Assembly: GCA_025454375.1 (NCBI GenBank)
Contig: JALOOO010000014.1
Span: forward strand, 1 to 61,843
Source of the DNA: Leptolyngbya sp. Prado105
Lineage (GTDB): Bacteria; Cyanobacteriota; Cyanobacteriia; Leptolyngbyales; Leptolyngbyaceae
Length of the DNA stretch: 61,843 nucleotides
Direction: 5' to 3'
The notes beneath the pieces are model-generated. The model had not been told where the DNA came from. It did not search any database and saw only the letters and a program-made list of their open reading frames with translations. Position 1 is the first letter of the stretch; every line of letters begins with the position of its first letter. This document shows, in pieces, positions 16,245 through 35,200 of the stretch. A program made the translations under genes and the position numbers.

Positions 16245-16364
16245 TATATCTCTATTGTCACTGTACTGCTGAATCTGGGAAGTCGCACAAAGACCAGTGA
16301 ATTGTGCCAGTTTCTTTGCCCAAACTGTTGACAATATAGATATAGTTGTAGACAATATAGATAT
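16245..16364. repeat. three GACAATATAGATATA repeats (operator-like)
   Basis: Direct copies at 16330-16344 and 16350-16364, spaced 20 bp, and an inverted copy with one change (GACAATAGAGATATA on the minus strand) at 16245-16259. TTGACA at 16328-16333 with GACAAT 17 bp later also gives a plausible plus-strand promoter inside the repeats. Confidence 0.55.
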
Positions 16365-16550
16365 AAACGAATCGGACACCGGAAGCCAAGAAGTACGGGG
16401 AACCTGCTGAACCCGCAGAACTGGTGATGAACGCTGCAAGGCTATAACCCAGCCGTTACGAAATTCATTTGTTCAAAATTCTGTAAACACAAGAGAACGC
16501 CCGACTTGCAATCACAGCGCTCTCTTGACTCACAAGGAGTACATCAAATT

Positions 16551-16829
16551 ATGGCATTCATTGATGATTGTTTGGCAGATGAGCGCGACCAACGCGAGGC
16601 TAAAACTCGCGATGCGCTCTACGATCGCTATCTCCAAGGTGCAAACGATGCTGCCTTTGCTCAGTTGCCGCAGTATCAAGACGAAGTGTATTTGGAGGGT
16701 TATCTGACCAAACTGAAGCAGTTGCCCAAAGACGAGGACGGACGCATCAAGCATTATTCTCCGACTCAACACTTTGCTTTTGGATACGTTGATACACCGA
16801 ATCCAGCTTACTACAACGACGATTTCTAA
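16551..16829 (+). CDS. hypothetical protein, first gene of DUF5895/PP-loop module
   Basis: 92 aa from the ATG at 16551, preceded by AAGGAG. Acidic N-terminus (FIDDCLADERDQREAKTRDALYDRYLQG), aromatic C-terminus (HFAFGYVDTPNPAYYNDDF). No family recognised. Followed by a hairpin with a T-tract and then the DUF5895-like gene. Confidence 0.6.
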   Translation: MAFIDDCLADERDQREAKTRDALYDRYLQGANDAAFAQLPQYQDEVYLEGYLTKLKQLPKDEDGRIKHYSPTQHFAFGYVDTPNPAYYNDDF

Positions 16830-16842
16830 ACCTCGTTCATCA

Positions 16843-16875
16843 GGGTTGGGGTGCAATCCTCGACCCTTTCTTTTT
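16843..16875 (+). terminator. intercistronic hairpin with T-tract
   Basis: A 9-bp stem with G-T wobbles (GGGTTGGGG / CCTCGACCC, loop TGCAAT) is followed by TTTCTTTTT. The Shine-Dalgarno GGAGA of the DUF5895-like gene starts right after the T-tract, so it may act as a partial terminator or processing site. Confidence 0.5.
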
Positions 16876-16888
16876 GGAGAGTTTGACA

Positions 16889-17779
16889 ATGACATTCGAT
16901 TACAATGGTCAATCTGCACAGATGGGACTAACACTAGAGCGACCCGTGCAAGAGCTTACTCAAGAAGCTGCGGATGAGTTTGATGCGCCTGAGTTTGAAG
17001 GTGAATATGAGTCGCTGCCTTATCTGCAAATGCTCAATCACCAAAGCCCTGAGCAATCTGGCTTCTTCATCACTCAAGAGAATGCTGAGGCGGTAGGGTT
17101 TGCTGATTCTGCTGGGGAATGGTTATCACACACGACGACTTTCGCAAGTGGAACAACAGTTGAAGGATACCGCAGCTTGACTGCTCGATTTTTGATTCTG
17201 CGGAAGTCACCCTTACTGATGTTCGATCGCGAAGAAGAGAACTTTATCAGTGTGTTTAATCCGCACTGCTACAACCGGGATACGATGCTGCTCAAAACTC
17301 GCTACCTGATTTACCTGGTGAACAAGCAGAAACAACCACTGCATCAAACACCATTACTGTTTACCACCAAGACAACATTCTGTGGTTCATTTGGTGATGC
17401 TTACCGTAGTTTCCGCCGTGAGATGAGTCAAGCCTACACACAGGCGACTGGAGTGCAAAAAGCGCGAGGAGAAAGATTTTTTGCACTGTCGGTCTTTGCG
17501 GTACAAGTGCAGCCGGAACTCAAAGGGAAGAAGCTAAAGTCCTGGGTTTGCTCGATCGCACACTATGGGCAGCCAAACGCACAGAACTGGAAAAACTTCT
17601 TTGTCGGCTACAACGTCGAACTGAAAGACAGACTGCTCACTGAGTTTGAGCAATGGGAAGGATTTGGTCATGTAGACGGTGAGACTGCATCTCGATCGTC
17701 TCAAGCACAATCAACTGAGCCAACGACTGTATCCGAGTACGACATTGACGAAGACTTTCCATATATGCAGGAGTTCTAG
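16889..17779 (+). CDS. DUF5895-like protein
   Basis: 296 aa from the ATG at 16889 (an in-frame TTG at 16874 is part of the T-tract). Features: DEFDAPEFEGEYESLPYLQMLNHQSPEQSGFFITQENAE, WLSHTTTFASGTTVEGYRSLTARFLILRKSPLLMFDRE and a central RYLIYLVNKQKQPLHQTPL. I recall this arrangement from cyanobacterial plasmid and chromosomal proteins annotated DUF5895; the assignment is from memory. No catalytic motif is evident. The C-terminus is acidic and disordered. Confidence 0.55.
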   Translation: MTFDYNGQSAQMGLTLERPVQELTQEAADEFDAPEFEGEYESLPYLQMLNHQSPEQSGFFITQENAEAVGFADSAGEWLSHTTTFASGTTVEGYRSLTARFLILRKSPLLMFDREEENFISVFNPHCYNRDTMLLKTRYLIYLVNKQKQPLHQTPLLFTTKTTFCGSFGDAYRSFRREMSQAYTQATGVQKARGERFFALSVFAVQVQPELKGKKLKSWVCSIAHYGQPNAQNWKNFFVGYNVELKDRLLTEFEQWEGFGHVDGETASRSSQAQSTEPTTVSEYDIDEDFPYMQEF

Positions 17780-17809
17780 ACCGTTGCTCATTTGACAAAG
17801 TTTGTTCAT

Positions 17810-17841
17810 CCTCTCAGGTTGCAACTGGGAGGAATTTTTTT
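17810..17841 (+). terminator. intercistronic hairpin with T-tract
   Basis: CCTCTCAG / CTGGGAGG stem (one wobble) with loop GTTGCAA, followed by AA and seven Ts. GGAG of the next gene's Shine-Dalgarno follows at once. Same design as the hairpin at 16843. Confidence 0.65.
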
Positions 17842-17853
17842 GGAGATTGAATC

Positions 17854-18111
17854 ATGAACGATGCTTCGGATTATCCCTACACGATTTCAGTTCTCAATTC
17901 ACAAGTTACACTGCCGCAATTTGCTTTTTTCCAAGTTGTGAAAGTGAAATTAACCGGAGAAGTCGCCACAATCGTTGGAATGAAATACGGCTCTAACAAT
18001 GAACAAGCCGGAACTCAGAACGAGGAATGGCTTTATCTGCTGAATGGTTTAACCAAGCTGGGTGCTGTTTGGTGGAAATTTGCTCAGCTTCGCAGTCTCG
18101 ATCGTCGTTAA
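17854..18111 (+). CDS. hypothetical protein in DUF5895/PP-loop module
   Basis: 85 aa; GGAGATTGAATC precedes the ATG. Beta-rich pattern (FAFFQVVKVKLTGEVATIVGMKYG, then EEWLYLLNGL) suggests a small SH3- or KOW-like domain. Not recognised. Lies between the DUF5895-like gene and the PP-loop gene, with hairpins on both sides. Confidence 0.6.
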   Translation: MNDASDYPYTISVLNSQVTLPQFAFFQVVKVKLTGEVATIVGMKYGSNNEQAGTQNEEWLYLLNGLTKLGAVWWKFAQLRSLDRR

Positions 18112-18124
18112 TGTTCCACTTCTC

Positions 18125-18160
18125 AAAGGATTTTCTTGGTTTGACTCAGGAAAATCCTTT
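18125..18160 (+). terminator. perfect 11-bp hairpin before PP-loop gene
   Basis: AAAGGATTTTC (18125-18135) pairs with GAAAATCCTTT (18150-18160) around a 14-base loop. The PP-loop ATG is 11 bases downstream without a clear Shine-Dalgarno of its own. Confidence 0.6.
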
Positions 18161-18171
18161 CATTATCAATC

Positions 18172-19341
18172 ATGATCCCAAAACTACATCTGCTTAATTG
18201 GGGCATGGGTGTTGAAAGTACAGCGATCTTGGTGCGCTGGATTTTGGAGCCGAATACCCGCCCCTTTTCAACCTTCCAAGACCTCATCGTATTAACTGCA
18301 CAAACTGGAGATGAGATATCTGAAACGAAAATTCTCTGTGAAGCTTATCTGTTCCCGCTGCTACGACAGCACCGGATTCGATTAGTACAAGTCGCAAAAA
18401 CGACTGCGAGTAAGCTTGATGGATATGTTGTTCTGAGTGATACGACAGAGCCTATCGAGCTATTTACGGAGGGATACTTCAAGCTCAGTCAGGATCTCGC
18501 GCAGTCTGGTACTGTTCCTCGACTTGGACGACCTCATACTTGCGCCCAGCGATGGAAAGGCGAAGTTCTCGATGCTTGGATTACTGATCATGTCGATGAA
18601 GCGTTTGGTCCGTATCTAGGCTACAACGCGGATGAACTTAAAAGGGCAGGAAAAGCAGACGGTTACACTTGCCAAGGACATCAATTCATTTATCCGCTTA
18701 TCGAATGGGGTTGGACACGGAACGATTGCATTGATTATCTGTACTGTGTGTTTGGTGTGCTATGGCGTAAAAGTGCTTGTGCTTACTGCCCATTTCAGCA
18801 AAAGAATGCAGCGATCGAGCGTTATCACCGTGACCCAAAAGCGGGTGGATATGCGCTACTACTGGAATCGAATGCACTTGCTTTTAATCCTCGAATGCAC
18901 TTGTTTTCATCGGGTACAGCGTATGATTTGATCGTTGAAAGTGGCAATCTTGCTGCGATCGCTGAACTCAATCGCTTACTTGATCAAACACAATGGGCGG
19001 TTTATCACGTCCAGCGAATCTATAAGCAATTGATCGGAAAGAATGGCAAACCTTATGTGAATGCGGATCGCAAGGTTACGATCGTAGCCCAGGGGCAAAA
19101 AGCGGAAATGGAAAGTAACTTGCAAGCAATCGCCCAGGAGCAAAATGCCACGATCAAAGACCTCTACGGAAGGCGATTTTATCTTCATCATCGATTGGAA
19201 GGGCTGTATCCTGCGATCGAGGAGTTCTATGTTGTGGCTCCTAACTTAGCGAAGGACAAGTGCCGCAGTCTCAAAGCTTTCGATCAACAATGGGCAGAGT
19301 TAACAAACCAGACTGAGGCTATCCAATTGAGCTTATTTTGA
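18172..19341 (+). CDS. PP-loop/PAPS-reductase-like ATPase with C-terminal beta-clamp motif
   Basis: 389 aa. The PP-loop is NWGMGVEST (residues 9-17), an adenine-nucleotide alpha-hydrolase motif. HTCAQRWK (Cys124) and SACAYCPFQ (Cys203, Cys206) match the cysteine sites of PAPS-reductase-like enzymes from phages and plasmids, near DndC in general design. These proteins activate a substrate with ATP and often transfer sulfur or nitrogen to nucleobases or DNA. The last five residues are QLSLF, the canonical peptide that binds the DNA polymerase sliding clamp (DnaN). The substrate is unknown; replication-coupled DNA modification is my inference. Confidence 0.75.
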   Translation: MIPKLHLLNWGMGVESTAILVRWILEPNTRPFSTFQDLIVLTAQTGDEISETKILCEAYLFPLLRQHRIRLVQVAKTTASKLDGYVVLSDTTEPIELFTEGYFKLSQDLAQSGTVPRLGRPHTCAQRWKGEVLDAWITDHVDEAFGPYLGYNADELKRAGKADGYTCQGHQFIYPLIEWGWTRNDCIDYLYCVFGVLWRKSACAYCPFQQKNAAIERYHRDPKAGGYALLLESNALAFNPRMHLFSSGTAYDLIVESGNLAAIAELNRLLDQTQWAVYHVQRIYKQLIGKNGKPYVNADRKVTIVAQGQKAEMESNLQAIAQEQNATIKDLYGRRFYLHHRLEGLYPAIEEFYVVAPNLAKDKCRSLKAFDQQWAELTNQTEAIQLSLF

Positions 19342-19353
19342 GAACAGAAAACC

Positions 19354-19596
19354 ATGAACCAAGAATTGTCTCCACACACGATACCCTCAAGTCAGGTTAG
19401 TACCGTTGAACTTAGCAAAGTGAAGCGTTTACTCACTTACATTCAGCAGACTGCGATCGATTCAGAAAACACACCTATTCAGCCGAGCGAAGTTTCGATC
19501 GTTGCTGATCTGATGATTCAAACTCTAGTATTGCAGCATCCCCATCTTGACCAGATCATTCAAGAAACTTTAGATGCTCTACGGTTTGAAATATAA
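19354..19596 (+). CDS. hypothetical protein, end of PP-loop module
   Basis: 80 aa, 12 bases after the PP-loop stop. Predicted mostly helical (VELSKVKRLLTYIQQTAI, VADLMIQTLVLQHPHLDQIIQETLDALRF). No family recognised. Convergent with the CBASS effector gene, only 6 bases apart. Confidence 0.55.
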   Translation: MNQELSPHTIPSSQVSTVELSKVKRLLTYIQQTAIDSENTPIQPSEVSIVADLMIQTLVLQHPHLDQIIQETLDALRFEI

Positions 19597-19602
19597 CGCT
19601 AA

Positions 19603-20649
19603 TCAGCTTCTGAATTGTCCATAGAAAAATTGAGGAACTGGGGCAGTGTGATCTAGCATAAGTCGAAGCTCAGGATTAGAAATAGCTTCGCGTAATGCTG
19701 CACAAGCCAATCCTTTGAGCGTTGACTGAGCGGCTGATGTTGCAATATCTAGTCCCAAATCTTGTTTTTGAGCCGCTGATTGGGCTGAATCAATGCGAAC
19801 ATAGCGCTCTGCAAGTTTATGTCGCAGCATATATCCAGTCATTGCCTGCTGCGAAGACATACTCACCGAGAGCAACCGCGTATCGTAGAACCAATCTAAA
19901 ATTCCTAAATCTCGCCCTACATTGTGTGAAAAGGAGAAGTCAGAAGTAGTTGTGCCGATACTTAGAATCGAGATTCGCTCTATTGGAATTTGCAAGAAAT
20001 GTTCAGCCTCATGAAGCGCAATTGAATCTGGCATATTGGCGTACAGTCCACCATCAGTGAACCATTCATCACCAACTTGTGCGAGCGGGAAAAACGTTGG
20101 CGCTGCTGATGTCGCTAAAGCCACTTTATGAACTAATTCCCGATGGTCTCGCTCAAATCGAATGTGATGCGGCGTTTTAAAGATCTGGGGACTGCCTTTT
20201 GTGAGGTTAATCGTTGGGACAACAATAGGGTGCTTTAAATCTCCCATCAGCGCCGAAGGATCAATGAATTCTTCTAATGCTTTGCGAAGTCCTTCTTGTC
20301 GATACTTAGCTCCGAATAAGAAACGCGATAAGTCGATTAGTTTCGCGATCGTAGATCTCGGTGCGGAACGGCTCGAAAAAATCTGCTGTCCGTGTTTTTC
20401 AAAGGCTCGCCGAATCTGAGTCGCAGGAACTTCTAGAGCTAGAGCTAATGCAATGATTCCACCGATCGATGTTCCTGCTAAGAGATCAAAGCATTGGGCG
20501 ATCGGTTTTCCAGCTTTTTCTTCCAGTTCGCACAGAATTGTAGCTTGGTATAGCCCTAGATATCCACCTCCACTCAGCGAAAGAATCTGAAATCTGTCTG
20601 ACCATTCGATACTGTTACTCATCGCAGATGCCCACTGGTTGTCAGTCAT
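19603..20649 (-). CDS. capV: CBASS effector, patatin-like phospholipase CapV
   Basis: 348 aa. Patatin motifs: glycine-rich oxyanion loop SGGGYLG (26-32), nucleophile elbow GTSIGG with Ser61 (59-64), and catalytic DGG with Asp199. In CBASS, a cyclic nucleotide from the CD-NTase activates CapV to degrade membrane phospholipids and kill the infected cell. Third gene of the minus-strand CBASS set. The ATG at 20649 touches a 15-bp hairpin and has no free Shine-Dalgarno; an internal ATG at 20622 is the alternative start. Confidence 0.92.
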   Translation of the reverse strand: MTDNQWASAMSNSIEWSDRFQILSLSGGGYLGLYQATILCELEEKAGKPIAQCFDLLAGTSIGGIIALALALEVPATQIRRAFEKHGQQIFSSRSAPRSTIAKLIDLSRFLFGAKYRQEGLRKALEEFIDPSALMGDLKHPIVVPTINLTKGSPQIFKTPHHIRFERDHRELVHKVALATSAAPTFFPLAQVGDEWFTDGGLYANMPDSIALHEAEHFLQIPIERISILSIGTTTSDFSFSHNVGRDLGILDWFYDTRLLSVSMSSQQAMTGYMLRHKLAERYVRIDSAQSAAQKQDLGLDIATSAAQSTLKGLACAALREAISNPELRLMLDHTAPVPQFFYGQFRS

Positions 20650-20689
20650 TTAGCCATAGCTCATTCTGGATGTGATGAGCTATGGCTAA
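20650..20689 (-). promoter_or_regulatory. 15-bp hairpin directly before capV start
   Basis: Perfect 15-bp inverted repeat (20650-20664 and 20675-20689) with a 10-base loop, filling nearly all of the space between the E2 stop and the capV ATG. Any ribosome-binding sequence would be inside the stem. No T-run follows. Confidence 0.65.
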
Positions 20690-20699
20690 ACTTCAGTCG

Positions 20700-21197
20700 T
20701 TAACTTACCACACTCTGATCTTTCTCAGCGGGCTGCCACAGACTTTGGAGGTACTGAAAGTTGGTCTGCTTCTGAACATTGGGTAGGTCAGGATGTTCGC
20801 CTCCCCCGTGCCATTGCTTTGTCGCTTGCCAAATTTCGTAGTAGTACAACCAAAGAGCAGTCCAAGGAACGATCGTCGTAGCAATGTGCCTTCTTTGAGT
20901 CCATTCACCTTTGCTAGGACGGTAAAGGCATAAGTTCCCATCACGATATAGATGAGGTAGAGGTTCTTCAGCGTGCAGAGCAGGCGTTAGAACAGATACG
21001 ACTGGTCGCTGCTGAAGTCCATAAGTGATCTTCACACGATAGAGATCGCTCAAGGGATCGGGCTGAATTTCTCCGATCCAAATGACGAGATTTCTCCTCC
21101 ATCGTGTTTGGAAATTTGGGAAGTGCAGCTTCATGACAGCGATCTGTTCGCGAATTGGCACGGTTTTCTCTGGCGGAAATGCAACTCTAATCGCCAT
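20700..21197 (-). CDS. CBASS E2-like conjugation protein (type II-short)
   Basis: 165 aa from the ATG at 21197, which overlaps the CD-NTase end by 11 bases. HLYRDGNLCLYRP places a conserved Cys (Cys90) in the E2-like catalytic context, followed by WTALWLYYYEIWQATKQWHGGGEHP, typical of the lone E2 proteins of CBASS. No E1 domain (ThiF-like) and no JAB protease are present, which defines the type II-short organisation. The E2 is thought to act on the CD-NTase C-terminus and tune its activity. Confidence 0.85.
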   Translation of the reverse strand: MAIRVAFPPEKTVPIREQIAVMKLHFPNFQTRWRRNLVIWIGEIQPDPLSDLYRVKITYGLQQRPVVSVLTPALHAEEPLPHLYRDGNLCLYRPSKGEWTQRRHIATTIVPWTALWLYYYEIWQATKQWHGGGEHPDLPNVQKQTNFQYLQSLWQPAEKDQSVVS

Positions 21198-22329
21198 AGA
21201 ACGTATTCTTTGGAACAACGATCGGACAGGGGCGATTTGTTAAAGCGCCAGTTTTCGGAACCATTCCTAACTGACCCGCTAGACGACCTTGATCGACCCA
21301 GTTTGCGGAGTCTCGCATAGCAGCTTGCGTTAAATTTTCCTCGAACAGAATTGCAAGAATGCCTGCGATCGCCGCATGACCCCTTGTATTCATCAGTTGC
21401 TCCCACAACCGAGAAAACTCCCCAATCCAAATTACGAACTCTTGATAAGCACAAGGATTGCGATCCCATCGCTCACCTAAATCTTCTAGAACTTGGTTTG
21501 CCTGATTCCAGACTTGAAGCCGCCCTTTAGTGTTTGCAATTCGATAACAAATTCCCTGCAAAATTCCGAAGATTGCTTCACTGACAGATTCTTGCCCTTG
21601 ATAACACTCAGCGCAAAGTGTACTGAGCAAAATACTTGCAGGCGCTAAACCTGACTTCTCACCTGTAAAGGTTAAATCTCGGCAGCGTTTCATAAGCTGA
21701 ATCGCACATCTGAGGGGTGCTTTCTCTTCCAAAGATTCTTGTTGAGGTAAAGGTTCAGCATGATCCAAACATCTAGCACTAACTGCATAAGTTTCAGCAA
21801 TGCGATCGAACCAAGCAATGTACTGTTTAGAATTGCTGTCGCGCCAGGATTTCAATTCTCGGTCAGGAACTCGAATTTGTCCTTCACCTAAAGCTGAGTT
21901 TGAACACGCTGCAACAATATCGAGATGGAAGTCGTGAGCGTATTTCAAGCTCACGCAGCGATTTTTTCGCTCAATTCTTGATCGATAATCGTCATGCTCA
22001 CGCAAGCGGAACTCCACTTTTGACAAAAGATCGATTGGATTGGTTCTTCGCCAATCAATCAAAAGTTCGCAAACAAAGTCCAGATCGTATTCTTCCCGAC
22101 TCAAGGGCTTATTGGTTGTGCCCATCGGTAATGAACCTTGCGGGTAGATGATCGGACGGTAGGGAGCCAAAATCGAGCCTTCTTGCTCCAGCCAGCGTCC
22201 TACCGCACGATAGTGTTCCTCAGCCAGTCTATACTGCGTCTTCGTCAGTTGCAGTTTTTGACAAATGATTTGAAGCAGCTTGTCTAGGGCTGTCAGAAAT
22301 TCCGCATCAGTTCGTAACGTTCGTATCAT
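21187..22329 (-). CDS. CBASS CD-NTase cyclic-nucleotide synthase
   Basis: 380 aa from the ATG at 22329, preceded by GGAG; the frame reaches a TTG at 22404. Nucleotidyltransferase core: QGSLPMGT (64-71) with Gly65-Ser66, catalytic Asp82 and Asp84 in EYDLDFV, and third Asp137 in FHLDIVAA. It makes a cyclic di- or trinucleotide on phage infection that activates the patatin effector. The C-terminus ends in NTFYGD, a Gly-containing tail of the sort recognised by CBASS E2 enzymes. First gene of the operon. Confidence 0.93.
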   Translation of the reverse strand: MIRTLRTDAEFLTALDKLLQIICQKLQLTKTQYRLAEEHYRAVGRWLEQEGSILAPYRPIIYPQGSLPMGTTNKPLSREEYDLDFVCELLIDWRRTNPIDLLSKVEFRLREHDDYRSRIERKNRCVSLKYAHDFHLDIVAACSNSALGEGQIRVPDRELKSWRDSNSKQYIAWFDRIAETYAVSARCLDHAEPLPQQESLEEKAPLRCAIQLMKRCRDLTFTGEKSGLAPASILLSTLCAECYQGQESVSEAIFGILQGICYRIANTKGRLQVWNQANQVLEDLGERWDRNPCAYQEFVIWIGEFSRLWEQLMNTRGHAAIAGILAILFEENLTQAAMRDSANWVDQGRLAGQLGMVPKTGALTNRPCPIVVPKNTFYGD

Positions 22330-22428
22330 AGAAATCAGCTCCAACGTAAATAAATGTGTGCCAACAAGGTTGCGAGTGATGAGCCTTTGAGAAGAAGTTA
22401 ACAAGTAAACTAAATTCTCATAAGCTTT

Positions 22429-22602: not shown

Positions 22603-23706
22603 ATGTCAGATGTTAACTCGCTCCGAATTTACCGAGAGCAGTATGGTTTATCTCAGGAAGAGTTGGGTGAGCAGGTCGGAGTCACTCGTCAGACGATCGC
22701 GACCTGGGAGCGGGGAGATCGACAGCCCTCCCTTATCCAGCTTTCAAAAGTGGCAAAAGTCTTCGGAGTTCCGCCTGATCTGCTGCTGCAACCCGAAGTA
22801 CAGAGGATGGTTCCGACAACTACAGGCAGTCCAAGTCTACTGTTTCGAGCAGATGACCCCTTAGCGCTCACTTCAACCGTAAGAGAATATTTGACGCGCA
22901 AGGCAGTGGACTTTAGCCAAATTGAGAAGTTAGTTGGAGAAATCCCGGTTCTGCCAGCCTCGCGACCGCTTGAAGGGTGTGAGGAAACGGTAGTAGAAGA
23001 CCTTGCTAAAGAGGTTCGTAGCTGGCTGGGTGTTGGCGAGTTTGCTCCCATTGGGGACGTTTTAGCGTTACTAGAAGCGAAAAGCCTAAAGATAATTGAG
23101 TATTCATTAGAAAATAAAATCTCTGGCTTTTCGGCTTATACCGATGATTGGGGCGGAGTTATTTTCATCAATACCGCTCATCCGACTGAGCGTAAATTCT
23201 TCACTGCACTACATGAACTCGCTCATTTAATCTTGCATCGGCGAGAATATCGACAACCACAAGGGCGATCGCGTCCAACTGATCCACGTGAAAAAGCTGC
23301 CAATCATCTAGCCGGAGCCGTTCTTCTACCAGTGGGAGCGGCTCAACGAGAACTGCACGCTTACAGAAATCGATGGTTGCCAGAACCCCTTCTACAAGAT
23401 ATCAAGCGGCGTTACGGCGTTAGTCTTCGCACAATTCTGTACCGTGCTGAACAGGCTGGGTTAATCACAAAACAGCAAAAAGGACAACAAATTGGCGTTC
23501 TTAATAAGAAGTATGGAGCCGAAGAAGAACTTCCGAAATTACCACCACCCCAATGCCTAACACGCTTAAAACGCTTAGTCTACACAGCGTTGGTGAAGAA
23601 AGAGATTACAACCTCTCGCGCTGCCGAAATTTTAGACGAAAAGCTAAGAACTGTGCAGAATGACCTGCTGGAATGGCTACACCAAGATGAGGAGGAACTG
23701 AATTGA
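22603..23706 (+). CDS. XRE-ImmA/IrrE fusion: HTH regulator with zinc metalloprotease domain
   Basis: 367 aa. N-terminal XRE helix-turn-helix (YREQYGLSQEELGEQVGVTRQTIATWE, about 9-37) and a COG2856 metallopeptidase with HELAH at 204-208. The C-terminal third (after about 260) includes a second small helical DNA-binding-like part (TTSRAAEILDEKLRTVQNDLLEW). Related split pairs CapH (HTH) and CapP (ImmA-like protease) control some CBASS operons after DNA damage. A PIN-like gene is coupled downstream. Toxin-antitoxin regulation is the other reading. Confidence 0.88.
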   Translation: MSDVNSLRIYREQYGLSQEELGEQVGVTRQTIATWERGDRQPSLIQLSKVAKVFGVPPDLLLQPEVQRMVPTTTGSPSLLFRADDPLALTSTVREYLTRKAVDFSQIEKLVGEIPVLPASRPLEGCEETVVEDLAKEVRSWLGVGEFAPIGDVLALLEAKSLKIIEYSLENKISGFSAYTDDWGGVIFINTAHPTERKFFTALHELAHLILHRREYRQPQGRSRPTDPREKAANHLAGAVLLPVGAAQRELHAYRNRWLPEPLLQDIKRRYGVSLRTILYRAEQAGLITKQQKGQQIGVLNKKYGAEEELPKLPPPQCLTRLKRLVYTALVKKEITTSRAAEILDEKLRTVQNDLLEWLHQDEEELN

Positions 23707-24083
23707 GCTATCTCTTGGATACATTGACGCTAATCGAATCGCACGACCTTAATCAGCTAAAAGCGATTGCTGGATACGTATCGATCGCAGTACTGGATGT
23801 TGTATTAGCTGAGTGTTACCCATCTTGCTCCGATTTAGCAGAAATGGCAAATCACCTCCAACTCCGTCTAGTGCCCAGTGAAACCGCTTGGTTAGAACCT
23901 GCTCGAAGATACTGCGATGGATGTTTGAGTTTGCAGGATGCGCTCAACCTTCACTACGCCAAGCGTGTGAAAAAAATTCTAATCACGAGTGAACCACCCT
24001 TACAAATTAAGTGTCAGCAAGAGAAAGTTCAGACACAAACAATGCTTTGGTTACTGGAGCAGCACTCTGGCTGCAAAGTCTAA
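23703..24083 (+). CDS. PIN-like domain protein
   Basis: 126 aa from a TTG that overlaps the upstream TGA (TTGA). MSYLLDTLTLIE gives the first PIN Asp, VVLAECYP the acidic helix residue, and CLSLQDALNLHYAK the third acidic site, in the right order for a PIN ribonuclease fold. The last acidic residue is not clear, so activity is uncertain. The XRE-ImmA plus PIN pairing is a recurring toxin-antitoxin-like arrangement. Confidence 0.65.
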   Translation: MSYLLDTLTLIESHDLNQLKAIAGYVSIAVLDVVLAECYPSCSDLAEMANHLQLRLVPSETAWLEPARRYCDGCLSLQDALNLHYAKRVKKILITSEPPLQIKCQQEKVQTQTMLWLLEQHSGCKV

Positions 24084-26158: not shown

Positions 26159-26551
26159 ATGCCGAGACAGCGAAAATCGCTAACCGGAGAATTGAGAACA
26201 GTGGCAATTCCGGTTTATATGAGTCCAACGGAACGAGAAACTCTTGGAGAAAGAGCAGGTTCACTTAGCCTGAGTGAATATCTACTGATGGCAGGATTAG
26301 GGCACTACGTTTCACAGCGACGGCAACGCCTACCCGTTCCTGAACTGAATCGATTGATTTACTTGGAGCTAGAGAAAGTTAGCCGAAATCTCAATCAAAT
26401 AGCTAAAGCTTGTCATGTTGCCGTTCAGCGTGGATGCAACTGCGATGTAGATACTAATGAAATTGCAGCAGTGATTGTGACGATTCAACGAATTCGATTA
26501 GAAGTCATTGCTGCAACGATCGATCTAGAAGATGAAGACGCAGAACTGTGA
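26159..26551 (+). CDS. mobC: MobC/NikA-like relaxosome accessory protein
   Basis: 130 aa from the ATG at 26159, preceded by AAAGGGAG. The N-terminal part (RTVAIPVYMSPTERETLGERAGSLSLSEYLLMAGLG) is a ribbon-helix-helix, and the C-terminal NRLIYLELEKVSRNLNQIAKACH is the classic MobC helix. It would bind oriT and help the relaxase open the DNA. The TGA overlaps the relaxase GTG start. Confidence 0.85.
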   Translation: MPRQRKSLTGELRTVAIPVYMSPTERETLGERAGSLSLSEYLLMAGLGHYVSQRRQRLPVPELNRLIYLELEKVSRNLNQIAKACHVAVQRGCNCDVDTNEIAAVIVTIQRIRLEVIAATIDLEDEDAEL

Positions 26552-28365
26552 TTGGCAAAATTGTTCAAGGAAAAAGTTTTCGCGGACTCCTGAATTACTT
26601 ACATAGTAAAGAGGAGGCGCAATGTATCGGTGGCAATATGGCGGGAGAAACGCCGCGTGAATTAGCCGCAGAATTTCGAGTTGCAAGAGGCTTAAATCGG
26701 CGCTTGAAAAAAGCGGTTTGCCACGTCTCGCTCTCTTTACCTAAGCATGAACGATTGGACAATGATCAGTGGTTAGCGATCGCAACAGATTACATTTCAG
26801 GAATGGGATACGAGAACTGTCAATATGTAGTGTATCGGCATCATGATCAAGACCATGATCACGTTCATCTGGCAATTTGTCGGATTCAGATAACCGATGG
26901 TAAGACAGTCAATGATTCCTGGGAGAAACGTCGAGCCGAAACACTGATTCGATCGCTAGAGCAGCAATATCAGCTTGAGAGCGTCCAGCCAAGTTGGGAA
27001 AAGCTCGAAGCAGCTCCCACAACCGGAGAAATGCGACGATTTGAGCGAACCGGAGAACTTCCGGTGCGAGTTCGGCTACAAGCTCAAATTGATCAAGCGG
27101 CTGAGGAAAATTTGTCGATCGCGCATTTCATCCATCAGTTGAAAGCTCAAGGCATTCAAATTCGGCTTCGCATCGCCCAGAATCAGCGCATCACAGGGAT
27201 TAGCTATTGCTTGGATAACATTGCCTTTAGCGGTAGCAAACTCGGTCGGGCTTATACCTTTCCAGGACTTCAAAAGTACAAGGGACTTCACTATGACCAC
27301 GCCACAGAATTTGAGACAACTTGCCAAGCAGCAGAACGACCCGCAGCAGGATCAGGACTTGATACAGCCGTTGTTGCAGAGTTTGAGCAAATCGCTGAAC
27401 GCCTTGGAAGCGCGATCGCACAGCCTGGAAACGGAATTGATCGAAACCAAGCAGTATCTGAGTTATCTACAGCAGCTTCACCAAGAATTAACCAACTGCC
27501 AGCAATCTTTGAGCCAACAGAGCCAGAGCCAGCAATACACGAACACGCATCTAGCTCAGATCGATCAACATCTGTCACATCAGGCTCAAATCGACAGCAA
27601 CCAGTTAGAGCAGCTAACTCGCATAAGCCAGGAAGTGGCATTGCTCAAGAACGAGACGATCGCAGTGGGACAGAATCAGGGAGTGATTCACCGATCGTTC
27701 CACGACTTCAACCAGTCGTTTCTGATTTTGCAGGAGCGACTAACCAATCTCGAAGACAAGACGGGGCAGCGACTGGCAACACTGACACAACAGACCGAAC
27801 AAATTCAGCAGGCGATTCCCAACAAAACCGCCTTTCCGCTGAAGCTATTTTTGAGCGGGGAAGTGGTGACGTATCGCGGAATTCTGGGGACGCTGACTTT
27901 TTCAGGGATGCTGGTCGCCGCGATCGTTTGGATTCTGCTTCAACTTCTACCGCCAGCCAATCAGAGTCGAACTCAGCAACTGGTGAACAGCAACGAGATT
28001 CGGCTCGATCGACTCGAACAAGGACAGCAGAAAATTCTGGACAAACTGGGGATTCAACCACAGAAAAAATAAATCTCAACGAAGACCAGCAGCGGTGGCA
28101 ACGGTATAGCTTAGGTATTCGAGCAAGTAATACGGTGAAGCTCAATACGTTAGCGGCAAGGCGGGCATTTGAAGATGGACAATCTCCGCAGGCGATCGCA
28201 CGAATGCTTCCCTATAGTCCGTTCGTGCAAGAAATGGTTGAGAAACACAAGAGTTCAGACAAAATTCAGGCTTACATTCGTCAAATCGTTCACGAGGCTT
28301 GTCAGAAAGAACAACAGTATCAGCGAACCCATCGAAAGCAACAGTCATCCAATTTAGAAATCTGA
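26548..28365 (+). CDS. mobA: MOBP-type conjugative relaxase
   Basis: 605 aa from a GTG overlapping the mobC stop. Motif I FRGLLNYLHSK supplies the catalytic Tyr17. Motif III HHDQDHDHVHL (98-108) gives the metal-binding histidines. The relaxase domain ends near residue 240. Residues 248-508 are Ser/Thr/Arg/Gln-rich and disordered and fully overlap a second gene in another frame. A folded C-terminal piece (INLNEDQQRWQRYSLGIRASNTVKLN..., 510-600) returns after the overlap. It nicks oriT and pilots the strand through the type IV system. Confidence 0.9.
   Translation: MIGKIVQGKSFRGLLNYLHSKEEAQCIGGNMAGETPRELAAEFRVARGLNRRLKKAVCHVSLSLPKHERLDNDQWLAIATDYISGMGYENCQYVVYRHHDQDHDHVHLAICRIQITDGKTVNDSWEKRRAETLIRSLEQQYQLESVQPSWEKLEAAPTTGEMRRFERTGELPVRVRLQAQIDQAAEENLSIAHFIHQLKAQGIQIRLRIAQNQRITGISYCLDNIAFSGSKLGRAYTFPGLQKYKGLHYDHATEFETTCQAAERPAAGSGLDTAVVAEFEQIAERLGSAIAQPGNGIDRNQAVSELSTAASPRINQLPAIFEPTEPEPAIHEHASSSDRSTSVTSGSNRQQPVRAANSHKPGSGIAQERDDRSGTESGSDSPIVPRLQPVVSDFAGATNQSRRQDGAATGNTDTTDRTNSAGDSQQNRLSAEAIFERGSGDVSRNSGDADFFRDAGRRDRLDSASTSTASQSESNSATGEQQRDSARSTRTRTAENSGQTGDSTTEKINLNEDQQRWQRYSLGIRASNTVKLNTLAARRAFEDGQSPQAIARMLPYSPFVQEMVEKHKSSDKIQAYIRQIVHEACQKEQQYQRTHRKQQSSNLEI
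27293..28072 (+). CDS. nested coiled-coil membrane protein inside relaxase gene (MobB/MbeB-like)
   Basis: 259 aa in the +1 frame relative to the relaxase. It starts at an ATG with AAGGGA 8 bases upstream. Residues 1-170 form a long Gln/Leu-rich coiled coil (LETELIETKQYLSYLQQLHQELT, VALLKNETIAVGQNQ), followed by a hydrophobic helix (GILGTLTFSGMLVAAIVWILLQLL) and a short basic tail. RSF1010 mobB and ColE1 mbeB/mbeD are likewise embedded in the relaxase gene, and RSF1010 MobB has a membrane helix. Sound composition here, against low-complexity sequence in the host frame, argues that this is a real gene. Confidence 0.8.
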   Translation: MTTPQNLRQLAKQQNDPQQDQDLIQPLLQSLSKSLNALEARSHSLETELIETKQYLSYLQQLHQELTNCQQSLSQQSQSQQYTNTHLAQIDQHLSHQAQIDSNQLEQLTRISQEVALLKNETIAVGQNQGVIHRSFHDFNQSFLILQERLTNLEDKTGQRLATLTQQTEQIQQAIPNKTAFPLKLFLSGEVVTYRGILGTLTFSGMLVAAIVWILLQLLPPANQSRTQQLVNSNEIRLDRLEQGQQKILDKLGIQPQKK

Positions 28366-29283: not shown

Positions 29284-32200
29284 TTATCCTATCTCAACTC
29301 CCTGGCAGGACTTTTTTGGCTGTGCTGCCTGTGCTTGATCTAGTTCTGAGGATGCACGATTCTGACGGGCAGATGTCCCTGTTTGCTCTTGTTGCTTATG
29401 AGTTTGGAAATCCTGCTGCATTGCGGATACTGCTTTGTCAGATAAGGGTTCACCATCAACAAATGCTTTTGCAACTTCGGTAATGCGCTTGAGATAATTC
29501 GATGCACGTCCTAACTCTCCAGCAACTCGATGCCATTTCCACAGAGATCGTAGCGTTTGTTTATCTCCACGCTCATATTCTCCGATTTTCACTTTGTCTG
29601 ATTGGTGTTCAATTAACAACCGATCGTTCCAGTCTTTCCCCTGCGCTGGAGTCATTCTGGTGATACCAGGAAGTATTTCCGCAATTCGCCATGCCATTTT
29701 CTCTCCTGGTTTGTCAGCGTCAAATGCGGCGATGACTTGTCCACCTTGATTAAGAACTTTCTGAAGTGCAACGGTTGGAATTGTGCCACAGCCATCAGTC
29801 GATAGATAAATTGTTACGTTAGTTGGGTTTGGCGACTTTTCTTTTTCCAAAACAGCTAGAGAGATGGCATCGATCGGAGATTCGGTCAAGATCACTCGGT
29901 TGACTGCGCCATTCGCTGACCGCAGCCAAAACCATCCATTTTCGCGGGAAGAGCCAGGAGCTAATCCGTGAAAGGCGTGTTCTGTGTCGCGTGTGCCCCG
30001 TAAACTTGCACCCGTGGCTTCGTGACGAGTCCAGGCTTGGTCATTGTGTCGATCGCTATACCGAAGAAAAACAGCATTGCAATGATCATCTGCATGAATT
30101 AATCCTGTGTCGTGAAAGCGATCGATCCAGGTTGCAGGCAACCCTCGCGTTTCGACAAGGTACTGTCGAACTGTTGTCCAGTGTTCTTCATTGCGGGAAG
30201 GTAATTCGAGTGGACGCGGCTCCTTTTGTATCGAAGAGGGTTGAGATCGAGCAGGAGTAGGTAGCGTTTGTCCTGAGAGCCATTGGACTGCCTCTTTGAA
30301 CTCAACTCTACGGACGTGCATGACTAAATCGATCGCGCCTCCACCACCCTTATCGGCTAACCAATCCATGAACTTTCCATCATTGATGCTAATCGTATGA
30401 CCTGTATCTTTCCATTTGTTCTTATCACGTCGATCTTTCTGAAGTCCTAAACTGGCTGCTACGGCTTCTAAATCAAAATTTCTTACTTCGTTGGCAAGTG
30501 CTACAACGTCAATTGGATCTGCTTGAACGGTTTCTAAACCGGACTGGATTGGGGGAGAAGTTATAGCTGAATTTTTAACAATCTGATCCTTCAAAGTATG
30601 TTCCGCTGGGGTCGATGTCTCAGAATTTTGTGAAGTAGCATAACCATCGCTATCCCAAGTTGGATCATGCCCTTGAACATCTACCTCATAGTCTCTTTTA
30701 ACTCCAGAGTATTCGCTCAAATCAAATAAAGCGTTAGTTGATTCAGTGATGACTTCAGCTTTTTGCTCTGGCTCAGATACTTGGCTAGATTGGTTTGTTG
30801 ATGACTGTTCATCTGAAGAAGCGTCAAAAGGATTCGATACTGCTTCTGACTGATGTATGCCTTGATCGACAACAACACGATGCCCCTGTGACTCTAGATA
30901 TGTCGTGAATCGCTCAATTGCCCCTGACCATGCTGGAATTGAAATCGATGGGATTCGCCCAACAGATCCGCCTGCGTCTCGGCTGGTCAGCGTTAGATTT
31001 AAAGCGTCTGAGATCGTTGCTGCGTCATCAAAGTAAGCTGTGTAAAAATCGCCAGAGACACACCGTTGAAGTACGAGATTATTGGGATGCTGCTCTTTAA
31101 CGCGCAGGTACTCGATCGCAAACGATGCAAGATTAGTACGATCTATTTGCTCTGCATCATTGATCGATTCTAAGCTCTCTGAATTGTCTGTTTGTACCAA
31201 TTGCTGATAGGTTTCGATCACAGTTTGAACTGCTAAATCTACATTTCTGCGACCGACAGCAGGTTCTAGGATTTCAGCTAATTGTTCTTGCAAAACTTGC
31301 TCAGAAACTTGAGAGCGAAGCACGTTGACGATCGCATTAACTTCTTCTGGCTCTAGACGAACGATATTGCCGTCTCCGAACTTCAGCACTGAATCGTCTT
31401 GTGTTGGTTCAACTACGTTGCTTGGAGTTTCTGATAAAACTTCAGTTGTCTGTATTGCCTGCGCCGTCTCCATCTGACGAGCTGCCTCTGCGAACCCTTG
31501 ATCGAGAATGTTACGGGAAAATAGTTGAGCAAAACTGCGATCGTGCGATCGTAACTCTCCTCCCCGTATTGGATTCTGAACGGCGACTTCTCGAAACTTT
31601 AGATGCCCAGTTTGAGCTAAGTCAAATACCATTTCAGAATCGATAAAGAGATCGCCATAGCTATCTTCGAGCCAATGAGTGAAATGTAGGGCTTCATCGT
31701 GTCGCTCGATCGTCAAAGGAATATAAGGCTGGTTCTCAATTCGCAGGTAAAACTCCGAATCTGCCATCACTGCCTCAATCAGTCCAGCTTGTTCTAGGAA
31801 TTTAACAATGTTTTTTTCTGCTCGTCCGGTTAAATGTTTTACAGCAATCACTCGAAGCGATGAGTTCTCTTCAGATGTAGGCATCGGTTGAGGTTGGCGC
31901 GAGAAATCGTCAAGAACTGGCTCATCCAAAATTAGTGGAATGACTTGATCAGTTCTAGGAATTGCTATCGGGTCTTTTGCCTGTGTTGGTGCAGAGATTG
32001 AATGTGCAGATTGAACAGCGGTTAACTGTGGCAATTCAATGCCTAATAAGTTTCGCGCCTGATCCTTAAAGTCAAATGCTGCTAATGTCCATTGTCTGTC
32101 TTGAAGGATGATTGAAAGAACTTGATCAATACGATCTTGAGGCACGATGAGTTCCATGCGATCGCTCACCGAATAAAACTCGCTCCCTGCGGCTGCAATA

Positions 32201-35200
32201 ATGTCTGCATCGAGTGAATACTGATCGCCTACTCCTGACTTCGGCGTTTGCAATACGAACCCGGTTGCATTTCCGTTTCCCAATCGCATTGATGCTTGAG
32301 TGCGGATTGTGAGCAGCTCATCGAGCGTTTTAACCGATGCTTGATACTGTGTTGCATCTGTCAGAAAAATCTTTACTTGAGCAGGCTCCTTAAATGCAAC
32401 AGGTTCCGCTCGAAGTGCTTCTTGAATATCAAATCCCGCAGGCATGATCAGCCCCTGAACCACATCACCGTGATCATTGGTGTAGTTGAGAAACCTTCCA
32501 TTTGGGTATTTCTCGTATGCTCGGATTGGGTTGCCTGTGAAAATCTGCATTTCGGTGCGCTGGTTTTGTTGCTGGCGCAGATCAAAGGCTTCGTAGATGT
32601 CTTCTTCGCTCCAGTTCGTCGCTTGTCGCGTGACTCGTGTGAGTGCATCATCTTTGCCGCGATTGAATTTTGAGAGTGGAATTGTTAATTGTTGGGATCG
32701 ATGATCCACTAAAATTTGAACCTTCCAATTGGTGGGTGCGATCGGGCTTCCTTTGTGTCCTTTCTGACTGATTCGGGAAACAACGCCATAAAAGACATTG
32801 CTTTCAGGTGAAACTACTCTTACAGGTGTTCCTGGTGGTGTTTCTGTCAGAACCTTTCTAATATGTTTCATTTGGTCGTCCAGTTTGTCTGTAAACCGAT
32901 CTTTCGTCCCCGGAGTGCGCTTTGTCGGTAACAGTTCTTGACGGTACGATCGCGTTTCATCTCTCAGTTTGGTTAAAAGTTCTCGCGATCGCTCTCTTGC
33001 AATTTGAGTGACGGCTTCAAAATCATGGTCAGCAATCTGCTCAACTGCGGGTAAATCAAGACTCTGCCGAACTGCATTAATGACTTGAAGTTGACTAAAT
33101 GGTTTAATCGGAACTTTGGCATCGACTACTTCTAGAGCTACTGCGCCCGTAAATTCACTCTTAATGCCACTGTCATCGGGGATGACCTCCATCTGCGCGA
33201 TCGTGCGAGCATCTAAATCCAGTTGATCAGCTTTTAGGACACTTTCACCCATTGCTTCTTTTTGGGTGATGAGTTCTCTTGTTTCCGCCTCAATCAAGCT
33301 GTAAAGATCTTCTTGCTCCTGAATCGTGAGTAAAGGAATTCGTCCGGTGACGCGCTTAATTACAGCAACGTCAGATTCATCACTGCCCACATCTAGCGGA
33401 TAGCTCAGTTTTGCTTGCAGTTCATAATCTTCTTCGAGGAGTTCTCGAACCACTTCTTCGCCATAGACATTCATGAAATCGACGACATTCGCGACAGACA
33501 TTTGAGAGTCACGCGAAGCTGTGACGTTTGCGTTGAGTTCTGCCATCTTCTTTGCCAGCAGTGCCCCTAACCGTTTCTCGGCTGGTAGGTCGCTCATTAA
33601 TAAGTCGAAGCTGGGTTTGACAACTTGCCCATAGCGATCGATGCGCCCAAACAATTGCATCACAAGATTGATGTCTCGTTCTGCTTGAGCAATAATCAAT
33701 CGTCGAGGTCGTTGATCAGCAAATTTCTCAGAAGCGTGAAGGTTGATTCCCGTAGCTCCAGAGCGGTTTAGAATCACAACATCTAAATCTCCTCGATTAA
33801 ATCGATTAATGATATCGACTCGTGCTTGGGGGCTGGTTTCACTACTGGGGCGAAGTCCGTAGCTTGTTTCTCCAGCGTGACTATATTCGATGATGTTGCT
33901 ACGTCCGGTAATTTCGTCAACGCGATAGCCTTCTTGCGTCAACCGCCAGCGAATGTAGTCGATCGAGCTAAGTGGAATACTCGATAAATCTGTTTCTTGA
34001 ATCAGTTCTTGGGCTTCTTCATAGGCAGCAACCGCTTCAGGTCCGATTTCTTCGTCGGTTAACCGACGGCGCGTTTTTTTGCCCCAACGATCGCTTTCAA
34101 TCACATCTCTGGATCGTTCCAAATATCGGTCTAATACATCTCCAAACGTAATCTCAATCGATTGTCCTGGCTCAATGTTATTCTCTTCGGTATACCATTC
34201 AATGAAGCTATCCATTGTGTTGGCAACTCCGATCAAAGGCTTCTCACCCCGTTCGATTGTGGCGATCGCTTCTTGTACCGCGACTTCTGCTTTTTGTGCG
34301 AGTAAACTTTGGTCGATCGCGTTGTGCATCAATGATGTGAAGTTAGTTGATCTCGCTCCAGCGGCTCCGGTTGTACCATCTTCGCTCAAAGCTTTAGCTT
34401 CGGCTTTCAGGCGTTTTTTGAGCTTATTTAATCCCGCTTGTTTTGCGTCATCGAAATCGTTAATTGCTCTCATGACCGATGAGATTCCTTCGGCAATGTC
34501 TCGATCGACCGGAACGACTTTCGCATTAAATGAAATGCCTTCCATCGATCGACTGCGCCGGAGCATTTGACCAGAGGCGACAAACTTCGTCGCGAACATC
34601 TGCTGTAGAGGAACACCACCGGATTTGAGAACTGTTTCTAGACTGTAGAGATTATCGACGGCATATCGGGCATCACTGCGCCGCGCATAAAGATCAACCA
34701 CGCCTGCATTTTTAATCGCAGTTGCAGACATAAATGTTGCTCCAGTACTCATGTCTACAAGTTCTCGCACAAATTCGGCTCGGCTTGGATAGATGCTATC
34801 GTCTTGAGATTTATCACTTCTGCCTCCAGCTTCGTGAGATTCATCGAAAACAAAAACGGCTTGAGGCGCAATCGCTCGAAAGAACTCCCGCCGAAACGGT
34901 TCTTTCTGCTGCACAGTCTGAAGCTGCGTGTAGGTTGTGAAAATTGCATCATAGTTGCCGAGTCCCTGCTGCATGATGCGTCGCATTTGCTCGGTTTGAG
35001 TCGCAGCATCGCCTGTTACTAATTGTCTACCGTCTTCTAAATCCAAAGTTAGCTTGTTATCGGTAGCAAAAACGCGCATTCTAGGCTTACCGATATCCGC
35101 CAGGTCGGTCATCATCGAGGTGTAAAGATTTGCCTTTTGCGTCACAAATACCGGAATGTGACCTTGACGAGCAGCATCGACAATATTTGCTGCACCAAAT

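Follow-up and report, generated by a model that had tools for sequence, protein, structure and literature searches.

Introduction

QLxLF at the C-terminus is given as a weak consensus of sliding-clamp binding by mobile-element enzymes in the available part of PMC4549789. The phosphorothioation protein DndC contains a 4Fe-4S centre with three cysteines, as described in the accessible portion of PMC10853773. In Synechococcus phage S-B43, according to the part of PMC12783734 at hand, CmoX and CmoY are a C5-methyltransferase relative with an SPPC motif and an ATP-dependent ligase acting on a DNA base. Phage members of the phosphoadenosine phosphosulfate (PAPS) reductase class are called sulfur-metabolism genes in the passages available from PMC10434257. 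Here we describe gene D (18172-19341, + strand), which encodes a PP-loop protein of this phage and plasmid "PAPS-reductase-like" class and lies with four further genes, A, B, C and E, on contig JALOOO010000014.1 of Leptolyngbya sp. Prado105. The window is this whole stretch, a single complete contig (G000:C10) of 61,843 bases from a cyanobacterial genome. We tentatively propose, with somewhat less than even confidence, that D acts as a stand-alone plasmid enzyme, attaching to the sliding clamp and modifying DNA that has just been copied.

Fold and conserved residues of protein D

The 389-residue D protein matches PHROG 424 (annotated as "phosphoadenosine phosphosulfate reductase") with an E-value of 1.4e-9. 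Residues 123-262 show a weak, partial match to the PADLOC model of SspD (E-value 9.4e-5). No match was obtained with DndC models, no Pfam family was found up to an E-value of 1, and NCBIfam returned irrelevant matches only. The AlphaFold2 model, built from 18 sequences, has a mean predicted local distance difference test score (pLDDT) of 85.7 and a predicted template modelling score (pTM) of 0.79. A Foldseek comparison of this model with solved structures placed ArtA, LarE, TilS and GMP synthase at the top with probabilities of 0.96-0.99, the TM-scores being about 0.3 and one match alone falling under an E-value of 0.001. Among viral models, the search returned a Vibrio phage "phosphoadenosine phosphosulfate reductase" (E-value 1.7e-8). 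At the sequence level, two weak MarA matches were found among solved structures, and the D profile yielded none. The confident model and the PP-loop matches assign D by its fold to the PP-loop ATP pyrophosphatase superfamily, and together with the sequence matches they indicate a predicted ATP-pyrophosphatase fold of the phage and plasmid "PAPS-reductase-like" class, distantly related to SspD. The motif ECGxH is the hallmark of PAPS reductase (CysH). D contains no ECG tripeptide and matched no PAPS or adenosine phosphosulfate (APS) reductase model up to an E-value of 1, and a CysH identity was rejected.

The PP-loop superfamily consensus is SGGxDS, and D carries the variant GMGVES at residues 11-16 (18202-18219, + strand). 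G11 and G13 are invariant in the 45 aligned family rows, as are K129, C203, C206, R282, R300 and K363, and S16 is present in 42. The pair C203-x-x-C206 (codons at 18778-18789, + strand) is likewise found in every one of 42 rows of the viral set, where C186 is also invariant; in the family rows C186 is kept in 32 of 45. C124 (codon at 18541-18543, + strand) is a cysteine in 42/45 family rows and 39/42 viral rows. Full-length D homologues make up six of the 42 viral rows, and no alignment was obtained for the loop in 34 rows of this set. Three Nonomuraea homologues (L073, L074 and L076) have glycine instead of S16, and these three together with L078 lack C124; their tails, QLELAI or QLALAL, are kept.

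The C-terminal tail

D terminates in QLSLF (residues 385-389; 19324-19338, + strand), a sliding-clamp-type peptide, and residues 386-389 are the sole segment of the AlphaFold2 model with pLDDT below 50. As judged from sequence and model, D appears to present the accessible Q-L-x-L-F type C-terminal peptide expected of a beta-clamp client. Cyanobacterial homologues terminate in QLSLF, QLTLFVP/VL, QLDLFVP, QLSLL, QLSLI, QLSLV or QMSLAL, and Nonomuraea homologues in QLSLSF, QLELAI or QLALAL. In the cyanobacterial clade, the linker preceding the peptide varies in length and sequence while the peptide stays.

A clamp-type motif was found within the last 12 residues of 9 of 36 non-redundant full-length homologues and of 6 of 480 other open reading frames (ORFs) of at least 150 amino acids from the D loci, one of these six control matches being a methyltransferase neighbouring D that is itself used in the neighbour evidence below. 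This control supersedes a first one (19/2498) that was drawn from stop-to-stop ORFs of all frames, many of which are not genes. The first set of tails (11/35 with the motif) included three C-terminal pieces, L035, L036 and L064, and left out 11 partial rows. On a quick tree calculated without the last 25 residues, the motif is present in 13 of 14 cyanobacterial-clade rows and all five rows of a Nonomuraea clade, and its distribution takes 5 changes in all against a mean of 15 after shuffling. The short viral relatives show a wider pattern within the last 30 residues in 13 of 28 cases, one of them a truncated D copy, or in 6 of 14 after clustering at 50%; as controls, 3/212 other ORFs and 0/184 internal windows had the pattern, which after shuffling occurred at a rate of 0.8%. 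This pattern was widened after the tails had been read, and narrower ones gave 2/34 (last 12 residues) and 6/34 (terminal 30). None of six longer viral D homologues carries the motif. All of these rates are descriptive and do not amount to proof, because the patterns were set post hoc and the relatives are not independent.

The reading of the D tail as a putative clamp-docking peptide is well supported by these sequences. Judged in the same way, the clamp-type tail is a real feature of the D class and is wider than had been claimed, since it extends to short phage relatives and to some neighbours. The open-access literature, with bioRxiv and most subscription journals outside its scope, yielded no report that ties PAPS-reductase-like proteins to the sliding clamp. 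On two other plasmid records, a protein without known family encoded about 2 kb downstream of D (L057, 11241-11882; L058, 11237-11896) terminates in QISLF, also of clamp type.

Distribution of D

Matches to D occur in 13 of 42 genomes of the taxonomic order, the window's own included, and several are partial or broken. A phylum-wide sample gave 7 of 386 genomes; apart from that of the window, all six matches are weak and partial. The genome scan yielded 26 loci from 75 stretches. Of 72,556 plasmid records, 136 carry a match to D, which in 87 of them covers at least 80% at one place. The plasmid carriers are mainly actinobacterial (Streptomyces 54, Rhodococcus 18, Mycolicibacterium 10, Prescottella 10, Nocardia 7), and Sphingobium (7), Leptolyngbya (4) and others account for further records. 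Among 50,697 phage records, four gave a match and none covered more than 80%. A Nonomuraea homologue used as query against viral contigs recovered 50 loci, mostly short phage-type relatives; the window D and a second PP-loop protein from Acaryochloris recovered no relatives there. A truncated D homologue at L031 (7952-10862) is flanked by two 354-residue ORFs that look identical and are in opposite orientation; they are probably insertion-sequence (IS) copies.

Neighbours of D on other records

The neighbourhood of D was tested on 21 records (19 of the 136 plasmid records and two viral ones), the near-copy G425 having been dropped before counting. The p values are single-test values from four tests, and some neighbourhoods had been read beforehand. 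Ten independent records encode a second PHROG-424 protein, which lies no more than 6 kb away from D on seven of them (combined p 7.9e-6) and no more than 12 kb away on nine. A C5 methyltransferase lies within 6 kb on 4 of 7 records (p 8e-4), and ParB-N shows a modest association (5/14 within 6 kb, 8/14 within 12 kb; p 0.0018). The single-stranded DNA-binding protein (SSB) was considered as a general partner and is not claimed; it is within 6 kb on 2 of the 8 records having one (p 0.016). The sequences show D clustered with another PP-loop gene and, in some cases, with a C5 methyltransferase.

Three of the second PP-loop proteins were scanned. Two match DndC, BrxP or SspD models (SspD 4.8e-14, DndC 1.9e-11), and one matches none. 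Four of five C5 methyltransferases near D homologues have SPEC, SPAC, STEC or SPIC replacing GPPCQ, and the S-x-x-C C5-methyltransferase-like proteins are encoded at L041 (8404-9855), L070 (9465-11381), L073 (9195-10985) and L139 (8979-10232). The neighbouring methyltransferase of A. marina terminates in QLSLFE, and QLSLF and QASLF occur close to the ends of the second PP-loop proteins from L069 and L070. The strict clamp motif, taken anywhere in the protein, occurs in 5 of 19 second-PP-loop and methyltransferase ORFs (near-copies counted) versus 4 of 532 others, a count made after the motif had already been noticed in the neighbours. The Acaryochloris neighbourhood also includes MT-A70 and ASCH genes. 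A Streptomyces anthocyanicus plasmid (L139, 1-6140) carries its D homologue about 2 kb from genes annotated as RAMP CRISPR-associated and cas6.

Genes A, B, C and E

Five + strand ORFs are present at 16551-19596. Genes A (92 residues, 16551-16829), C (85 residues, 17854-18111) and E (80 residues, 19354-19596) encode proteins without known family. Gene B (16889-17779) encodes 296 residues from its ATG, a TTG start being possible five codons upstream, and belongs to DUF5895 (PF19247, E-value 3.9e-39). For the directed five-gene cluster with its DUF5895-like protein and three small proteins, as for the PP-loop/PAPS-reductase-like class of D, its CxxC-type cysteines and its terminal QLSLF, an earlier sequence-only reading of the window was borne out.

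The C-terminal end of B (17690-17776) and of homologues L063, L087, L090 and L100-L102 has an acidic linker. The tip of B is acidic-aromatic, as are those of several DUF5895 rows (DEDFPYMQEF, AFGYDDF, EAGYDDF), a character that resembles SSB tails. This SSB-like nature is only a hint because the AlphaFold2 model of B, with two sequences in the alignment, is so poor (pLDDT 32.7). B matched no sequence of a solved structure and, as a query against viral contigs, recovered no relatives; in the open-access literature DUF5895 was met as an annotation. Hairpins stand immediately 5' of A, B, C and D (16490-16527, 16842-16867, 17809-17833 and 18125-18160), and a T-run and GGAG come after several of them. 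The cluster of Leptolyngbya NIES-3755 retains the leader hairpins with pair-preserving changes, and the C leader was found again on contigs C269 and C271. Terminator-like sites in the cluster region are not in excess (4 versus 3.0 in shuffles), and an Rfam scan of 16300-19700 gave nothing above cut-off.

The same reading had also taken the five genes for one dedicated system, and this part was not supported. The C-terminal variability that the reading had named as evidence against itself is seen in part, in the 25 of 45 D homologues that have no motif. The full A-E order was seen in two places, the window and plasmid1 of NIES-3755 (56-96% identity). Remnants of B, C and D in the same order persist in decayed form on G009:C9, and Nodosilinea has an A-B-D cluster. 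Among the 42 genomes of the order, A has 9 carriers, DUF5895 14, C 9 and E 6, all relatives of E being in the same genus. A adjoins B in G016, G033, G041, NIES-3755 and Nodosilinea, the first three without D. The C-E pair stands without D on contigs C269 and C271 of the window's own genome, where the two chromosome- or plasmid-borne paralogues of C each lie beside an E paralogue. D occurs without A, B, C and E at loci L026-L030. Five D genes that are complete or almost so come from the same order and lie outside the genus (G001, G002, G009, G034 and G038). In the stretches read around them, one of which spans just 4.2 kb, none of A, B, C or E was found; the distance from D to B- and C-like genes is 20-37 kb in G001, G009:C29 and G034. 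An obligate five-gene module is rejected, as A-B, C-E and D are found apart. They are separately mobile pieces able to come together; A-B and C-E, both plasmid-borne, are next to D in some cases and are not its obligate partners. One contig of G018 (L034, 9254-16131) carries both a C-E pair and, about 5 kb away, a distantly related D-like gene with 27% identity.

Plasmid setting of the window

The window contig is a conjugative-type plasmid, mobilisable or conjugative, because a MobA/VirD2-type relaxase (26548-28365, + strand; PF03432, E-value 8.6e-35) and the T4CP and TrbI families are present among its larger ORFs. The relaxase is 7.2 kb away from D, and at locus L061 a NikA-like gene is about 3 kb away from a D homologue. 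Directly after the A-E cluster, on the opposite strand, lies a CBASS operon (19603-22404, - strand) comprising a phospholipase effector (NCBIfam CBASS_lipase, 375 bits, above cut-off), an E2-like protein and a CD-NTase, as identified with PADLOC. A regulator with helix-turn-helix and Peptidase_M78 domains (PADLOC matches RmrA and capP) and a 126-residue protein without family follow at 22603-24083 (+ strand). A 2575-residue protein with Strawberry-notch helicase, MutS_I, DUF6908 and Toprim domains is encoded at 29284-37011 (- strand).

Discussion

The proposal of a clamp-tethered modifying enzyme builds on the fold class of D, its conserved loop and cysteines, its conserved clamp-type peptide and its residence on plasmids. 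Clamp docking is suggested by the tail sequence, catalysis by the conserved residues, and DNA as the substrate by the clamp motif together with the neighbours. The short linear motif QLSLF would dock into the host sliding clamp (DnaN) and would place D on newly copied plasmid DNA, either during replication or during second-strand synthesis after transfer. There, D would most likely use ATP to activate a position in a DNA base or in the backbone, and would modify it by sulfur transfer or another hypermodification. Such a modification would make it easier for the plasmid to evade restriction or other host defences. A broader version, in which a widespread plasmid and phage class of PAPS-reductase-like proteins works from the clamp and places an ATP-dependent counter-defence modification on new mobile DNA, partnered in some plasmids by a second PP-loop enzyme and an atypical cytosine-C5 methyltransferase, is on balance doubtful.

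Several observations weigh against the proposal. Of the 45 D homologues, 25 do not have the motif, among them the rows examined from Rhodococcus, Gordonia and Streptomyces. The motif patterns were, moreover, set after the tails had been read, on homologues that are not independent. The scan of the window, which covered its larger ORFs, revealed neither a second PP-loop gene nor a gene for a DNA methyltransferase, and D matches the PADLOC model of SspD weakly and over part of its length. The Nonomuraea rows that have lost S16 or C124 and kept the tail also fit a non-catalytic clamp ligand.

The last point leads to a regulatory role, in which D would occupy the clamp and tune plasmid or host replication with its PP-loop domain as a nucleotide sensor. 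Three Nonomuraea homologues without S16 and four without C124 would be expected of such a ligand, whereas almost every one of the 45 family rows retains the loop and the cysteines, as expected of an enzyme, and we regard this role as quite unlikely. The substrate could also be RNA. TilS is among the fold matches and the Acaryochloris neighbourhood holds MT-A70 and ASCH genes, which agrees with a modification of RNA, for example of tRNA in the manner of TilS or TtcA and perhaps directed against tRNA-targeting defences, the tail serving elsewhere or being incidental. A clamp-type tail kept across long divergence, and DNA methyltransferase neighbours, argue against this, and RNA modification is considered decidedly unlikely.

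A part for D in phosphorothioation proper, Dnd- or Ssp-like and relying on a second PP-loop gene and a host cysteine desulfurase, would accommodate the weak SspD match, the SspD or DndC matches of two of the three second PP-loop proteins scanned, and the three cysteines described for the 4Fe-4S centre of DndC in the available part of PMC10853773. It sits poorly with the missing DndC match of D, the lack of a second PP-loop gene among the scanned ORFs of the window, and the lack of any Dnd or Ssp partner match among nine module-region proteins scanned, and its probability is low. That A-E form one dedicated system working only together is suggested by the common strand and short spacers, the order repeated in NIES-3755, the decayed B-C-D remnant and the Nodosilinea A-B-D cluster; since A-B and C-E pairs occur without D, and D alone at L026-L030, this is highly improbable. 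Sulfur assimilation by D as a PAPS reductase would follow the family name of PHROG 424 and the designation of phage members as sulfur-metabolism genes (PMC10434257, as far as its available text goes), and is scarcely credible in view of the absent reductase model match and ECG tripeptide.

The clamp-tethered enzyme remains our preferred reading: the D tail matches a clamp-hooking peptide, and therefore D may act on DNA during copying. If true, a conserved docking tail would shift part of the "phage PAPS reductase" class from sulfur to DNA metabolism, would point to newly made DNA as the D substrate, and would mean that plasmids label their own DNA by way of the host clamp.

Comparison with known systems

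The PHROG 424 phage and plasmid proteins share with D the core C-x4-K, KSxCxxCP and PL..W, and many short members have a clamp-type motif near the C-terminus; unlike D, the short members are devoid of about 110 extra residues that bear the invariant R282, R300 and K363. SspD and DndC resemble D in the PP-loop fold, the cysteine set and the weak SspD profile match, and differ in that the match is partial and no Ssp or Dnd partner was found among the nine module-region proteins. Type IV-B systems occur on actinobacterial plasmids. No csf gene was matched among the same nine proteins, and CRISPR-type genes lie near a D homologue on 1 of the 21 records (L139). CasCysH of Type IV-B has, like D, a PP-type loop and a plasmid home in Actinomycetota, and is described without a catalytic cysteine in the accessible part of PMC8175902, whereas D retains three to four cysteines. 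CmoX, with its SPPC, is similar to the C5 methyltransferases near D homologues, where S-x-x-C replaces GPPCQ in four of five; CmoY, an asparagine-synthetase homologue, belongs to a different family from D. The IS transposases are an enzyme class unrelated to D, and they are like it as mobile-element enzymes: a C-terminal Q-L-x-L-F binds the host clamp in the transposases, as stated in the available text of PMC4549789, and the tail of D is predicted to dock in the same way.

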